Shown here: positions 14,205 to 35,807 of the stretch, in pieces
Position numbering within the stretch: the first letter of the stretch is position 1
Layout of the letters: every line of letters begins with the position of its first letter
Assembly (NCBI GenBank): GCA_020850355.1
Contig: JADZEX010000061.1
Location: 1 to 64,000, forward strand
From: Fimbriimonadaceae bacterium
GTDB taxonomy: Bacteria; Armatimonadota; UBA10988
Reading direction: 5' to 3'
DNA: 64,000 nt
The notes under the pieces: model-generated
Seen by the model: only the letters and a program-made list of their open reading frames with translations
What the model was told of the DNA's origin: nothing
The model's database searches: none
Made by a program: the position numbers and the translations under genes

Positions 14205-15713
14205 GTGAGGCGAGCGTTGATCGAACCCTGGCCGATGGTGGCCGAGCCGGCGCAGACGGCGCCAGCGGCGGTGCTGTTGATCGATCCGAGCGGCGGCGTG
14301 CAACCCGTCGATGCCGCGGCGGCCGACCTGTTGCGGGCCGACGACGGGGCCTTGGCGTTGTTGCTGGGCCAGCGGCAACCCTTCGGTGAAGCCTGGCCGG
14401 GCGCCCCGACCCAAGGCCGCGTCGAGAGCGGCGGGCGCTCCTACGATGTCAGCATCCTGCCGCGTGGCGATGGCTCCTCGGTCGCGCTGCTGACCGCGGC
14501 ACCGGCCGGCGCACCGGTGACGCAGTTGCCAGCCGGTCCCTGGCGGGCCTGGCTGGAGGACGCTCCCGCCCTGGTGGTACTGCTTGACCCCGAGCACCGC
14601 GCCGTGGCGGCCAACCGCCGGCTCCGCGAACTGCTCGGGGTCGACGCCGGGGAGTTGCTGCAGCAGCCCTTCTTGCGTTGGGTGGCGCCCTCCGCGCAGC
14701 CCGCCGCGCTGGCGGCGTTGGAGGCGGCCGGCACCCTGCCCGAGTGCCGCCTGGTGGCCGACAGCGGGGTGGAGCTGGTCTGTGAGTGGGAGGTGGCCGC
14801 CGTACGGCAGGGCGAGCGGCGGTGGGGCAGTTGGGTTTTCCTGCGCGACATCACCCGCCACCAGGCCTCGGCCCTCGAAATGGAGCGCTACACCCACGAG
14901 CTGGAGCGGCTCTACGTCGAGGTTGAGCAGCGTCGGCAGGAGCTGGAGGACGCCAACCAGGCGCTGCGCCAGGCGCGGCTCGAAGCCCTCGCCGCCGAGG
15001 AGCTGGCGCGGCTGGAGCAGATGAAGACCGCGTTTCTGGATGTTGCCGCCCACGAGCTGCGGACGCCGGTGACGCTCCTGGCGGGGGCGCTGGAGTACCT
15101 CGACCAGCCGGTGCCAGCGGCGTCGCGGGAGGCCCTGCTAGGCGCCGCCCAGCGCAGCACACGGCGCCTGACCGAGATTGTCGACACCGCGCTGAAGCTG
15201 CTCGGCAACGGTGAAGCGCCGCGCCCCGACAACTTCCTGGCAGCCGACCTGGACGCCGTGCTGCAGGCCGCGGCGACCGATGTCGAGCCGTTCGTGAGTC
15301 GCCGCGGGCAGGAGCTGCGGGTGCGCCTGGCGGGGGGCCTGCCGGCGCTGCAGCTCGACCGCTCGATGATCCGCGATGTCGCCACGAACCTGTTGATGAA
15401 CGCGATCAAGTTCACGCCCGATGGCGGTCTGCTGGAGCTGACCTCACGCCGCCGCCCGGGGGGGGTCGAGTTTGAGGTCCGCGACAGCGGGCTGGGCATC
15501 CGCAGCGCCGACCTGCCGCTGGTCTTCGAGCAGTTCTTCTGCAGCCTCGACACCCGCAACCACAGTTCCGGCGACTACGAGTTCAACAAGCGCGGGCCCG
15601 GCTTCGGCCTGGCCATCGTGCGCAAGTTCGTCGAGCTCCACGGCGGGCAGGTCACCGTCCGCAACAACCCCCAGGGCGGCTGCACCTTCACCGTCGCGTT
15701 GCCTCTGCGCTGA
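14205..15713 (+). CDS. Soluble PAS histidine kinase
   Basis: The 502-residue protein has no clear transmembrane segments. An N-terminal region and a PAS-like domain (WLEDAPALVVLLDPEHRAVA, then GSWVFLRDITRHQ) lead into a long coiled coil (about 225-275). The HisKA H-box reads FLDVAAHELRTPVTLLAG, with the phospho-accepting His. The ATPase boxes are VATNLLMNAIKFTPDGG, VRDSGLGI and GPGFGLAIVRKFVELHGG. No response regulator is adjacent, so the partner must lie elsewhere. GTG 14205 gives the longest in-frame start. ATG 14235 is an alternative, and neither has a strong ribosome binding site. It is transcribed away from rlpA and followed by dacB after 51 bases. Confidence 0.87.
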   Translation: MRRALIEPWPMVAEPAQTAPAAVLLIDPSGGVQPVDAAAADLLRADDGALALLLGQRQPFGEAWPGAPTQGRVESGGRSYDVSILPRGDGSSVALLTAAPAGAPVTQLPAGPWRAWLEDAPALVVLLDPEHRAVAANRRLRELLGVDAGELLQQPFLRWVAPSAQPAALAALEAAGTLPECRLVADSGVELVCEWEVAAVRQGERRWGSWVFLRDITRHQASALEMERYTHELERLYVEVEQRRQELEDANQALRQARLEALAAEELARLEQMKTAFLDVAAHELRTPVTLLAGALEYLDQPVPAASREALLGAAQRSTRRLTEIVDTALKLLGNGEAPRPDNFLAADLDAVLQAAATDVEPFVSRRGQELRVRLAGGLPALQLDRSMIRDVATNLLMNAIKFTPDGGLLELTSRRRPGGVEFEVRDSGLGIRSADLPLVFEQFFCSLDTRNHSSGDYEFNKRGPGFGLAIVRKFVELHGGQVTVRNNPQGGCTFTVALPLR

Positions 15714-31943: not shown

Positions 31944-32009
31944 GGCGGCCTCCGCAAGATCGAGCCGCGGGAGCTGCAGGCGACCCGCCTGCCCGCGCCG
32001 TAGGTGGGA
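31944..32009 (+). repeat. 66-bp direct repeat, copy 2 (duplicated methylase 3' end)
   Basis: This is an exact copy of 29560-29625, again including the methylase stop codon, but with no methylase coding sequence upstream. It borders the insert on the side of the GH106-like gene. Confidence 0.97.
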
Positions 32010-32045
32010 TCGGTTAAGATGGCGGCGCGGCGTGGAGCTTGGCCG

Positions 32046-35000
32046 ATGATACGCGGCGCCATTCTGGTTGGTTTGTTGACCGCCCTGCTCGATCCGGTCG
32101 GGGCGGCGACTTTGGCGGAGAAGCAGAGTCTGCCCTTCGAGCAGGTCCGGGCCCAGTTGGCGCAGCCGCCACAACACTATGCGCCGTTCGTGTTTTGGTT
32201 CTGGGACGAGCCGCTGGACCAGCCGAAGCTGACCGCGATGGCGACCCGGCTGGCGGCGCAGGGGTTCAATCCGGGCTATGCGCACCCGCGGACCACCGCG
32301 CCGGGGGTGGGGCGGCAGCGGCCGTTGCCGCCGGAGCAGTGGCTCTCACCGGACTGGTTCGACTGCTTCCGCAGCGCTCTGGGAGCGGCCGAGGCGGCTG
32401 GCGCGCAGCTCGGCTTCTGCGACGAGTACATGTGGCCGAGCTTCCAGGCCGCCGGGCGGGTCGTCGCGCAGCATCCGGAACTGCGCGCAACGTCGCTGGA
32501 CTGGACCACACACGACCTGGCCGAGGGGCAGGCGGTCGAGGTGCCAGCCTGCGCGTTCGCGGTGGCCGCGCGGCTGCTCGACCCGCCGGCCGCGGTGGAG
32601 CCTGGGCCGGTGCCGCTCGGCGCCTGGATCTGGACCCCGACCGGGCAGGCGCAGCGTCACGAGGCCTGGTTCCGGGGCACCTGGGACCTGCCCGCGACGG
32701 GCGACGCGCCGGCCGAGCTGCGGATCACCTGTGACAACCGCTGGGCGGTCTGGGTCAACGGCCGCGAGTTGGGGCAGGGCGACGACTGGTCCGCGCCGCA
32801 GACCTTCGACGTGGCGGCCGCGCTGCGGCCGGGGCGCAACGTCGTGGCGGTGCGCGGTGGTGGTGACGGGGGACTCGATGCGCTGACCGTCGGCCTGCGG
32901 GTCCGGCGCCGCGGGCAGGCCGACCTGTTGCTGGGCACGTCGGGCCGGTGGCGCGTCAGCGACCACGAGGCACCTGGCTGGCAGACGCCGGAGTTCGACG
33001 ACACGGCCTGGGCGTTGGCGCGGGTAGTCAGCACCGATCCGGGCGCCAGCCCCTGGCAGCTGACCACCCGTGGGCCGCACCAGCCGGCGCGGATTGAGGG
33101 CCGCAGCAGCCGCCTGGTGAGCGGCGGCGAGCCCACCACCTGGACATCGCCAGCGGGCGCCTGGCGGGTCTACGTGTTTCACGTGAAACAGCTCGGCGGT
33201 CCGAACTACCTCGACCAGCGGCTGCCGGCGGTGTTCCAGCAGATTGCCCTGGAGCCCTATGCCGCGGCGCTTGGCGAGAAGCTCGGCCGCAGCGTGCCGG
33301 GCGTATTTGTTGACAACGAGGGACAATGGGGCACCCGGCTGGCCTGGTCGCCGACGCTGGCCCAGCGGTTCGAGCAGGACGCCGGCCAGGATCTGCGCCT
33401 GGCCTTGCCGTTGCTGCTCGATGTCGATGGCGCGGGGCGCGAGGCGGCCGTGCGCTGGCGCTGGTTCGAGGCCGTCAGCAGCGTCTACGCCGAGACCATG
33501 GGCAGCACCAGCCGCTGGTTGGAGCAGCGCGGGGCCTACTGCATCGAGAACCTCTGGGAGGAGAGCCTGCCGTGGCAGGCGCAGTACGTCGGCGACTTCT
33601 TCAAGCTCAGCCGCGCCTACACCATGCCGGGCAACGACTGCCTCGGCCGCAAGGCCCTGGAGCCGCACGACTTCGCCGAGGCGGCGTCGGTGGCGGAGTT
33701 TGAGGACCGCCGGATGATGAGCGAGATCCTCGGCGCCGGAGGCTGGGGGCCGTTCACGCCGAGCTTCATGAAGCAGGCCGTCAACGCCGTGGTCGCCTTC
33801 GGGGTCAGCCACATCGTGCCCCACGGGGTGTTCACCAACCGCGACCTGGAGGGCAACGTCTGGACGCCGGACTGGTACGACGGCAACCCGGCCTTTCCGT
33901 GGTACCGCTGCTGGACCGACTTCGCGCGGCGCGCCTGCTGGGTCGCCAGCCAGGGCCGGCTGGTGCCGCAGGTGCTGTTGGTGAACCCGATGGACAGCGT
34001 CTGGGCGCGGGCCCCGGTGGCGGTGTTCGACCCGGCCACGCCCGGCGACCTGTTCCAGACCGACGGCTGGTGGGGCCAGCGGGTGGCGCAGATCAACGCC
34101 GTTTACAGCCGCGCCATCGACGACCTCACGGCCGCCGGGGTGCCGTTCCTGGTGGCCGACCGCCACTACCTCAGCCAGATGCGCTGCCAGGACGGCGCGC
34201 TGCGGCGCGGCGACCTGCGCTTCGAGACGGTGGTGCTGCCGCCGCTGGACCTGCTGCCGACGGCCACGGCGGCGAAGCTGGTCGAGTTTGCCGAGGCCGG
34301 TGGTGAGGTGCTGACGCTCGGCGAGCTGCCGCGCGGGTCGGCCGAGGTCGGTTGGGACGACCCGGCGCTGCTGGCACTCAGCGCCCGCCTGCGCCGCGCG
34401 CCGCGCTGCCGGGCGGTAGACCAGGTTCGCGACCTGCGCGGCCCGCTGCAGTTCCTGGCCGGTGAGTTCCCGCTGCTCCGCCGGCGCCTGCGGATCGGCG
34501 GGCGAGAGGTCTGGTGGCTGGCGAATCAAACCGGCCTGGCGCAGGCCGCCGAGGTCCGCATCGCCGGCGCCCACGGTCGGGCGGAGATCTGGGACTGCGA
34601 GACCGGCGCGATCCGCGGCCTGCCGTCGGTCGACAGCGCGGCCGGCAGTCGGCTGCACCTGACCTTTGAGCCCGACGAGGCCTACTGGCTGGCGTTCGAC
34701 CCGCCGGCCGCGCCGCTGCCAGCCGCCGCCCCGGCGCCCGCTGCCGCGGTGCTGCGGGAGCTGCCCGGGCCCTGGCAGATCAGCTTGCCGGACGACGCCC
34801 AGCCGGTGCTGCAGTTCCCGGTCAGCCTGCCGCCGGCGCTGCGCGCGGGCGTGACGCGGCCGCTCGGCCCGTGGGAGGAGTGGCTCCCGCCACAGTTCAG
34901 CGGCGTGCTCGACTACGTCCTGTCGTTCGACCTGCCGACCGCGCCGCCGGGGGACGCCTGGCTCGACCTGGGCGTGGTGCTCTACGCGGCTGCGGCCGAG

Positions 35001-35807
35001 CTCAACGGCACCTCGTTGGGGCAGCGCCTCTGGGGTCCGCACCGGTTTGCCACCGGTCCGGCCCTCCGCCGCGGCCGCAACGCGCTGCGGATTAGGGTCG
35101 CCAACCTGATCAACAACAGCTACGGCGACCCGCGGAGCGGCGGCCTGCTGGGGCCGGTCTGCCTCACCGTCGGGCGGCCCGGCCCCGACGTGGCGCCGGC
35201 CGGCGGCACCCCGGTGGCGCTGGCCAACGCCACCGCCGACCACTCCCAGCCAGACTACGAGGTCGCCGGCCTGCTGGACGACGACCCGCGCAGCGGCTGG
35301 GGCGCCTGGGACCCCGCACTGCGGGAGCCGGTGGCGCAGACCGCGGTGGTCGAGACGGTCGAGTCCGTCGGGCTGCCCGGCCGGCCGACCACCCTGGTCT
35401 TCGTGATCGAGCAGGCCTACCGGCCGCCGGACGGGCTGTCGCTGGGCCGCTTCCGGCTGGCTGCGACGACCGCCCCGCGGGAGACCTTCGCCGACGGGCG
35501 GCCGAACGGCGGCGCCCTGGGCGACCAGTGGCAGGTCCTCCGGCCGACGGTCTGCCACTCCCAACGCGGCACGCCGCTGCTGGTGCAGGCCGACGGCAGT
35601 GTGCTGGCGGCCTTCGGGCCGGCGGGGCCGGACGTCTACAGCATCGTCTGCGAGACCGCTTTGGGAGGGATCACGGGGTTCCGGCTGGAAGCTCTCGAAG
35701 ACGACCGGCTGCCCACCGGCCCGCAACGACGCACGGCCGGCGGACCGGGCCGCAGCGCTGGCGAGGGCAACTTCACGGTCACCGCGCTGCGCGTCAGTCA
35801 GCGCTGA
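32046..35807 (+). CDS. Secreted GH106-like alpha-L-rhamnosidase family protein
   Basis: The protein has 1253 residues. A signal peptide (GAILVGLLTALLDPVGAAT) is followed by a TIM-barrel start typical of the GH106-like family: FVFWFWDEPLDQPKLTAMAT, GYAHPRTTAPG, LSPDWFDCF and LGFCDEYMWPSFQAAGRV. A jelly-roll sugar-binding insert (about 180-290, with FRGTWDLP and VRGGGD) interrupts the barrel. A second such domain lies near 940-1030 (WLDLGVVLYAAAAELNGTSL). The probable role is extracellular removal of rhamnose or a similar sugar from plant or microbial polysaccharide. I chose ATG 32046, which has GGAG upstream. An exact parS consensus lies within codons at 33175-33190. Confidence 0.75.
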   Translation: MIRGAILVGLLTALLDPVGAATLAEKQSLPFEQVRAQLAQPPQHYAPFVFWFWDEPLDQPKLTAMATRLAAQGFNPGYAHPRTTAPGVGRQRPLPPEQWLSPDWFDCFRSALGAAEAAGAQLGFCDEYMWPSFQAAGRVVAQHPELRATSLDWTTHDLAEGQAVEVPACAFAVAARLLDPPAAVEPGPVPLGAWIWTPTGQAQRHEAWFRGTWDLPATGDAPAELRITCDNRWAVWVNGRELGQGDDWSAPQTFDVAAALRPGRNVVAVRGGGDGGLDALTVGLRVRRRGQADLLLGTSGRWRVSDHEAPGWQTPEFDDTAWALARVVSTDPGASPWQLTTRGPHQPARIEGRSSRLVSGGEPTTWTSPAGAWRVYVFHVKQLGGPNYLDQRLPAVFQQIALEPYAAALGEKLGRSVPGVFVDNEGQWGTRLAWSPTLAQRFEQDAGQDLRLALPLLLDVDGAGREAAVRWRWFEAVSSVYAETMGSTSRWLEQRGAYCIENLWEESLPWQAQYVGDFFKLSRAYTMPGNDCLGRKALEPHDFAEAASVAEFEDRRMMSEILGAGGWGPFTPSFMKQAVNAVVAFGVSHIVPHGVFTNRDLEGNVWTPDWYDGNPAFPWYRCWTDFARRACWVASQGRLVPQVLLVNPMDSVWARAPVAVFDPATPGDLFQTDGWWGQRVAQINAVYSRAIDDLTAAGVPFLVADRHYLSQMRCQDGALRRGDLRFETVVLPPLDLLPTATAAKLVEFAEAGGEVLTLGELPRGSAEVGWDDPALLALSARLRRAPRCRAVDQVRDLRGPLQFLAGEFPLLRRRLRIGGREVWWLANQTGLAQAAEVRIAGAHGRAEIWDCETGAIRGLPSVDSAAGSRLHLTFEPDEAYWLAFDPPAAPLPAAAPAPAAAVLRELPGPWQISLPDDAQPVLQFPVSLPPALRAGVTRPLGPWEEWLPPQFSGVLDYVLSFDLPTAPPGDAWLDLGVVLYAAAAELNGTSLGQRLWGPHRFATGPALRRGRNALRIRVANLINNSYGDPRSGGLLGPVCLTVGRPGPDVAPAGGTPVALANATADHSQPDYEVAGLLDDDPRSGWGAWDPALREPVAQTAVVETVESVGLPGRPTTLVFVIEQAYRPPDGLSLGRFRLAATTAPRETFADGRPNGGALGDQWQVLRPTVCHSQRGTPLLVQADGSVLAAFGPAGPDVYSIVCETALGGITGFRLEALEDDRLPTGPQRRTAGGPGRSAGEGNFTVTALRVSQR
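33175..33190. promoter_or_regulatory. parS site (ParB-binding centromere), inside coding sequence
   Basis: TGTTTCACGTGAAACA is a perfect 16-base palindrome identical to the Bacillus-type parS consensus conserved across bacteria. It falls inside the GH106-like gene and encodes V-F-H-V-K-Q using TTT and AAA, codons rarely used here, where TTC and AAG dominate. This points to selection on the DNA rather than the protein. parS sites seed ParB-CTP loading for chromosome segregation and usually lie near the replication origin. Confidence 0.85.

Follow-up and report, generated by a model that had tools for sequence, protein, structure and literature searches.

A coding-sequence parS palindrome in a Fimbriimonadaceae bacterium as a probable outlying member of an expanded centromere

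The window, that is, the whole stretch of 64,000 nucleotides analysed here (bases 1-64000 of the 85.7-kb contig C64), carries an exact match to the parS consensus inside a glycoside hydrolase gene. The locus raises two questions, namely whether a lone centromere-type palindrome in coding sequence is a genuine ParB-binding site, and whether it says anything about the position of its contig relative to the replication origin.

The window site and its host gene

The 16-mer TGTTTCACGTGAAACA is present base for base, as the preliminary description had reported, and is the sole match in the window at three or fewer mismatches (Table 1). Its location inside glycoside hydrolase coding sequence also stood, the product (1,253-1,267 amino acids, depending on the start) being called GH106-like only, because its match to Pfam Glyco_hydro_106 (E 1e-5, 24.6 bits) falls under the gathering cut-off of 29; partial matches were found to the solved relatives 6q2f (E 1e-15) and 5mqm (E 2e-5). 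The surrounding genes are ordinary chromosomal and carbohydrate genes, among them those for a RecG helicase, GAPDH, a GxGYxYP glycoside hydrolase and heparinase-like and fucosidase-like proteins, and no mobile-element gene was recognised among the ten proteins scanned from this neighbourhood.

Table 1 Features, coordinates and site counts referred to in the text
Feature	Location	Strand	Remarks
Exact parS palindrome TGTTTCACGTGAAACA	window 33175..33190	.	G flank on either side; single isolated site on C64; one of 112 genome copies
Site-containing codons GTG TTT CAC GTG AAA CAG (V F H V K Q)	window 33174..33191	+	in frame
Host gene, GH106/alpha-L-rhamnosidase-like glycoside hydrolase	window 32046..35807	+	called start 32046; longest ORF 32004-35807
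Host neighbourhood	window 20786-44246		
parA	C96:4022-4828		adjoins parB
parB	C96:4828-5727		adjoins parA
CobS-like membrane protein gene	L102:14377-15114 (C96)		in-frame parS at 14711 and 14744
Shared array ends	C46:91839-91965; C59:38256-38382		identical, 127 bp
Exact sites on dense contigs	C96, C46, C22, C59		34, 31, 20 and 7; together 92 on 515 kb
Remaining located exact sites	ten further contigs (1.09 Mb)		18
Actinobacterial genomes	G662; G458; G587 (loci L264-L292)		130 (3,632,260 bp); 108 (3,377,915 bp); 109 exact sites
parS at hairpin apex	L277:14601 (G458:2334601)		perfect inverted repeat, 15-bp arms

The preliminary description had called a chance occurrence very unlikely, and a second-order Markov model agrees, giving 1.5e-7 expected exact 16-mers per 64 kb and 1.5e-5 per genome. 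The TTT and AAA codons that it had singled out are indeed unusual in this genome (9.8% of Phe and 9.4% of Lys codons, respectively). In nine homologues of the host protein (40-56% identity across the aligned part) the residues before the motif are conserved, mostly as RVYVF, and those that follow differ (KLRH, RQRQ, TTYE, TQYH, HKTR and others); FHVKQ occurs in none, the conserved Phe codon is TTC in all nine, and the palindrome is in none. This codon comparison, which the preliminary description had proposed, speaks against homologous proteins using FHVKQ with the same codons. Since the homologues have other residues and use TTC for Phe, nothing in the protein requires the motif, and since they are without the site it was gained in this lineage; on the alignment, it arose here by a TTC-to-TTT change together with substitutions within a variable segment.

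One reading of the window site alone is that it is a coincidence within a gene, outside any parS system, and it is indeed coding, single and accompanied by no other match in the 86 kb of its contig. We consider this very unlikely, since only 4.8e-5 exact matches are expected in all coding sequence genome-wide on the basis of codon usage, the homologues reveal no protein-level reason for the motif, and four more exact copies lie in called genes (five genome-wide, the window site included).

Genome-wide parS arrays and the ParABS proteins

The genome is a 6.67-Mb draft in 117 contigs (95% complete, 71.5% GC). The search for further copies that the preliminary description had suggested returned 112 exact copies of the 16-mer and 168 with up to two mismatches, while the reversed-motif control returned 0; this is about five times the highest published parS number that we found (24). 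By flank-specific scans and contig reading, 110 of the 112 exact sites were located, and the four dense contigs, one of them carrying parAB, hold about 180 exact sites per Mb, compared with one in 86 kb on C64. Foreign-contig contamination was ruled out, as the dense contigs share the composition of the genome (tetranucleotide r 0.96-0.98). C46 and C59 share their terminal 127 bp, which contain a parS array of 25-bp spacing. Either the array is duplicated or the assembly broke at a repeat here, and up to three exact sites may be double-counted as a result. No other contig ends overlapped, and as both of these ends face outward no join could be made.

The architecture of the sites was described for 159 sites with up to two mismatches on 1.455 Mb of contigs, which fall into 74 clusters (28 single sites and 46 with two to six sites). 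Clusters recur every 4-10 kb or so on C96 and C46, whereas sites thin out along C22 (eight in the first 25 kb, two in the last 80 kb), and density also falls along C96. Neighbouring sites are most often 55-56 bp apart and some stand in 25-bp tandems; the spacing shows modest helical periodicity (R 0.30, p about 0.001). The core GTTTCACGTGAAAC (positions 2-15) is nearly invariant in the 159 sites, mismatches being almost confined to positions 1 and 16, and beyond the 16-mer there is a clear preference only for C before and G after the site. This core occurs 148 times, compared with 10 for the next most over-represented palindromic 14-mer. Extra symmetry of at least 5 bp was found around 7 of 108 sites of this genome (1.6 expected), which equals the best of 300 shuffles. 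The idea that parS generally forms the tip of hairpins serving as bidirectional terminators was rejected, the arrangement applying to few sites of this genome and being striking at one site of the actinobacterial genome G458, where parS sits at the apex of an inverted repeat that resembles such a terminator (Table 1).

A mobile or REP-like repeat that carries parS could also have distributed the sites, as local tandems (59-bp units at C46:8848-9145, 25-bp units at C46:91847) and the 91 bp common to C46:76729 and C46:89387 at 92% might suggest. A comparison of 600 bp on each side of all 74 clusters found only 10 weak or local similarities, several of them due simply to overlap between the compared windows or to the end that two contigs share, and since array flanks are thus mostly unrelated we regard a mobile repeat as very improbable.

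The distribution of sites over genes was evaluated with gene calls made in this analysis, by which 86-94% of every contig except one small contig is coding. Of the 110 located exact sites, 105 fall between genes, although intergenic DNA makes up 8.3% (p 3e-106). On C96 and C46 together, parS occurs in 14 of 17 convergent gaps, compared with 7 of 27 divergent and 13 of 70 tandem gaps (Fisher p 1.6e-6); the three convergent gaps without it are all shorter than 100 bp (median 24), and every convergent gap of at least 100 bp has one, a preference in which cause and effect are not separable because the arrays partly set the length of the gap. A CobS-like membrane protein gene on C96 contains two in-frame parS copies, each with one mismatch and separated by 33 bp, giving LLFHVKLAALGALFHVKL.

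The absence of parB, which would have spoken against a parS site, was not observed. The genome has one match to the ParB family, with intact ParB_N, HTH and C-terminal dimerisation domains, the motifs GERRWRA and ENLQR, and similarity to solved Spo0J/ParB structures at E 1e-55. ParB-family proteins are CTP-dependent (CTP-gated) sliding DNA clamps. The left end of C96 has the order yidD-yidC-jag-x-parA-parB, which is the usual oriC neighbourhood (the first three genes were assigned by visual inspection); a motif search of the contigs examined gave no dnaA, and an SMC-like gene of 1,200 amino acids was found by motif on C19. At the specificity positions equivalent to R173/T179/K184/G201 the protein has R/T/K/G in the alignment compared with PMC7383237, where R/T/K/G defines the parS (RxxG) class and Q/K/K/R the Noc/NBS class (Jalal et al., PMC7383237). 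The claim that the site is of parS type is therefore borne out by the parA-parB pair, by a sole ParB with parS-type specificity residues and by the gain of the site in this lineage, and we conclude from the sequences that the window site is very probably a real ParB site.

Noc/NBS proteins form a related ParB-fold family with many dispersed palindromic sites, and the many dispersed intergenic copies seen here would suit the operator of another DNA-binding protein, such as a global regulator or a Noc-like nucleoid-occlusion factor. This is very improbable in our view: the motif is the parS consensus and not NBS, the sole ParB/Noc-family protein found has R/T/K/G instead of Q/K/K/R and scores 235.6 bits, below the Noc cut-off of 315, and the sites favour convergent gaps, which have no promoters.

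Position relative to the origin and comparison with other genomes

The preliminary description had further taken the one site to mark its stretch as centromeric and origin-proximal, and this part did not hold up. The genome has about 110 copies, the densest contigs include the one with parAB and yidC-jag, and the window site is the only one on its contig in a draft assembly. GC skew, recommended as a guide to position, is flat and uninformative, as is gene strand bias. The scattered exact sites fall on the same contig more often than chance predicts (12 same-contig pairs compared with 3.7 expected, p 0.003, lengths of 83 contigs resampled), which is weakly suggestive of a wide origin-centred zone.

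A closed genome with a similar number of sites offers a scale for the comparison. Among 396 genomes of Actinomycetota, three have more than 100 exact sites (Table 1) and the rest at most 25; G662 is apparently the type strain of Eggerthella lenta. In G458 (closed, 3.38 Mb), the 100 sites listed have a density of 65 per 100 kb at distances of up to 10 kb from parB and of about 1.3-2.2 per 100 kb elsewhere, and 31 of these 100 lie more than 1 Mb from parB, the terminus half also having sites. By this comparison, the lone site on C64 looks more like the G458 background than like its core. Because C64 has one site and the sites of G458 extend over the terminus half, the window site is no proof of origin proximity.

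These Eggerthella-type actinobacteria resemble the present genome in having more than 100 exact sites, mostly intergenic, and G458 also in its density peak at parB with chromosome-wide scatter. They belong to an unrelated phylum and are without the convergent-gap preference, many site pairs in G458 are 34-35 bp apart, and the flanks in G662 and G458 favour A/T (ATGTTTCACGTGAAACAT), in contrast to C/G here, a difference in flank preference because of which the expansions look independent. A partial literature search found no publication describing the expansion in these actinobacteria or in the present genome.

Within the phylum, 290 other genomes have 0-13 exact copies each, mostly 0-2. Three members of the family have no exact 16-mer and one 14-bp core each with at most one mismatch; because the close relatives have 0-1 sites, the expansion is recent in this lineage and not required for segregation in the group. 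Four genomes from other families of the phylum (G290, G273, G275 and G269) have 8-13 exact sites, some of these sites in close groups, and are possible intermediate stages of expansion.

In published accounts, chromosomes have 1-20 parS (PMC10197239), with 20-23 in Streptomyces coelicolor and Listeria innocua (PMC7333895) and 24 in Myxococcus xanthus (PMC3778016), the highest count that we found. The present system is like these multi-parS chromosomal ParABS systems in its 16-bp palindrome, its parAB in an oriC-type neighbourhood and the clustering of sites around it. It differs in having about 110 exact sites, compared with at most 24, in arrays that extend over at least 0.5 Mb with outliers, and in arrays that occupy the convergent gaps on its two densest contigs. 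In Pseudomonas aeruginosa, ParB is bound at hundreds of 7-bp half-parS and only four full origin-proximal parS form a complex (PMC10419367); ParB at hundreds of chromosomal places is a likeness to the sites predicted here, whereas in the present genome it is the full palindromes that are multiplied.

A proposed expanded centromere and its meaning

Taken together, the window site is probably a true parS that lies in coding sequence as an outlier of a massively expanded centromere. We are less sure of a function for this site than for the arrays, as it is single, within a gene and on a contig of low density. A single ParB would load at some 110-170 parS palindromes rather than the usual 1-24, mostly at intergenic arrays with a spacing of about 55 bp along at least 0.5 Mb of contigs, including parAB and the oriC-type neighbourhood. 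The result would be a ParB-coated, ParA-pulled and presumably SMC-loading zone spread over hundreds of kilobases, in which scattered single sites such as that at 33175 may act as weak secondary loading points, and which could benefit the cell by making segregation robust or by compacting a broad region around the origin.

The main rival is a near-neutral expansion, in which, once additional loading sites are tolerated by ParB, genuine ParB sites arise and persist where they are harmless (promoter-free convergent gaps, variable protein loops), most densely near the native cluster, where tolerance is greatest, and the window site would be a product of drift with no job. It is compatible with the site being a parS, and for this reason the probability that we allow it overlaps with that of the preferred reading, most of whose predictions it shares, except for fitness effects. 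The convergent-gap preference and the near absence of sites from genes agree with it, as does the tolerance of Caulobacter for extra parS mainly near the native cluster, with an insertion frequency that falls gradually with distance (PMC5815017). Positions 2-15 are nevertheless nearly invariant in 159 sites, many with unrelated flanks, which suggests selection for binding, isolated mutation should have left more decayed copies, and the 55-bp spacing recurs; we consider a near-neutral origin unlikely, though clearly worth weighing.

Returning to the expanded centromere, we tentatively extend it to a distributed centromere, with somewhat less conviction than would be needed to call it probable. 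More than 100 full parS would create a ParB/SMC domain at least half a megabase long, in whose core practically all convergent gaps with enough room hold arrays. Comparable architectures would have evolved independently in unrelated phyla (here and in the Eggerthella-type actinobacteria), which would make this a separate way of segregating or folding chromosomes rather than an oddity.

Why parS number varies and what drives centromere expansion are stated open questions (PMC7333895, PMC5815017), and in Caulobacter extra parS outside a permissive zone can lower fitness (PMC5815017). A genome of about 110 sites whose closest sampled relatives are site-poor, together with a closed and cultured counterpart (apparently E. 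lenta, 130 sites), makes the question of expansion testable, in terms of ParB loading at all sites, SMC following, chromosome folding and the consequences of removing arrays. The near-complete use of convergent core gaps also hints that where parS is placed is connected with transcription. In genome mining, finding a lone exact parS is by itself no evidence of origin proximity.
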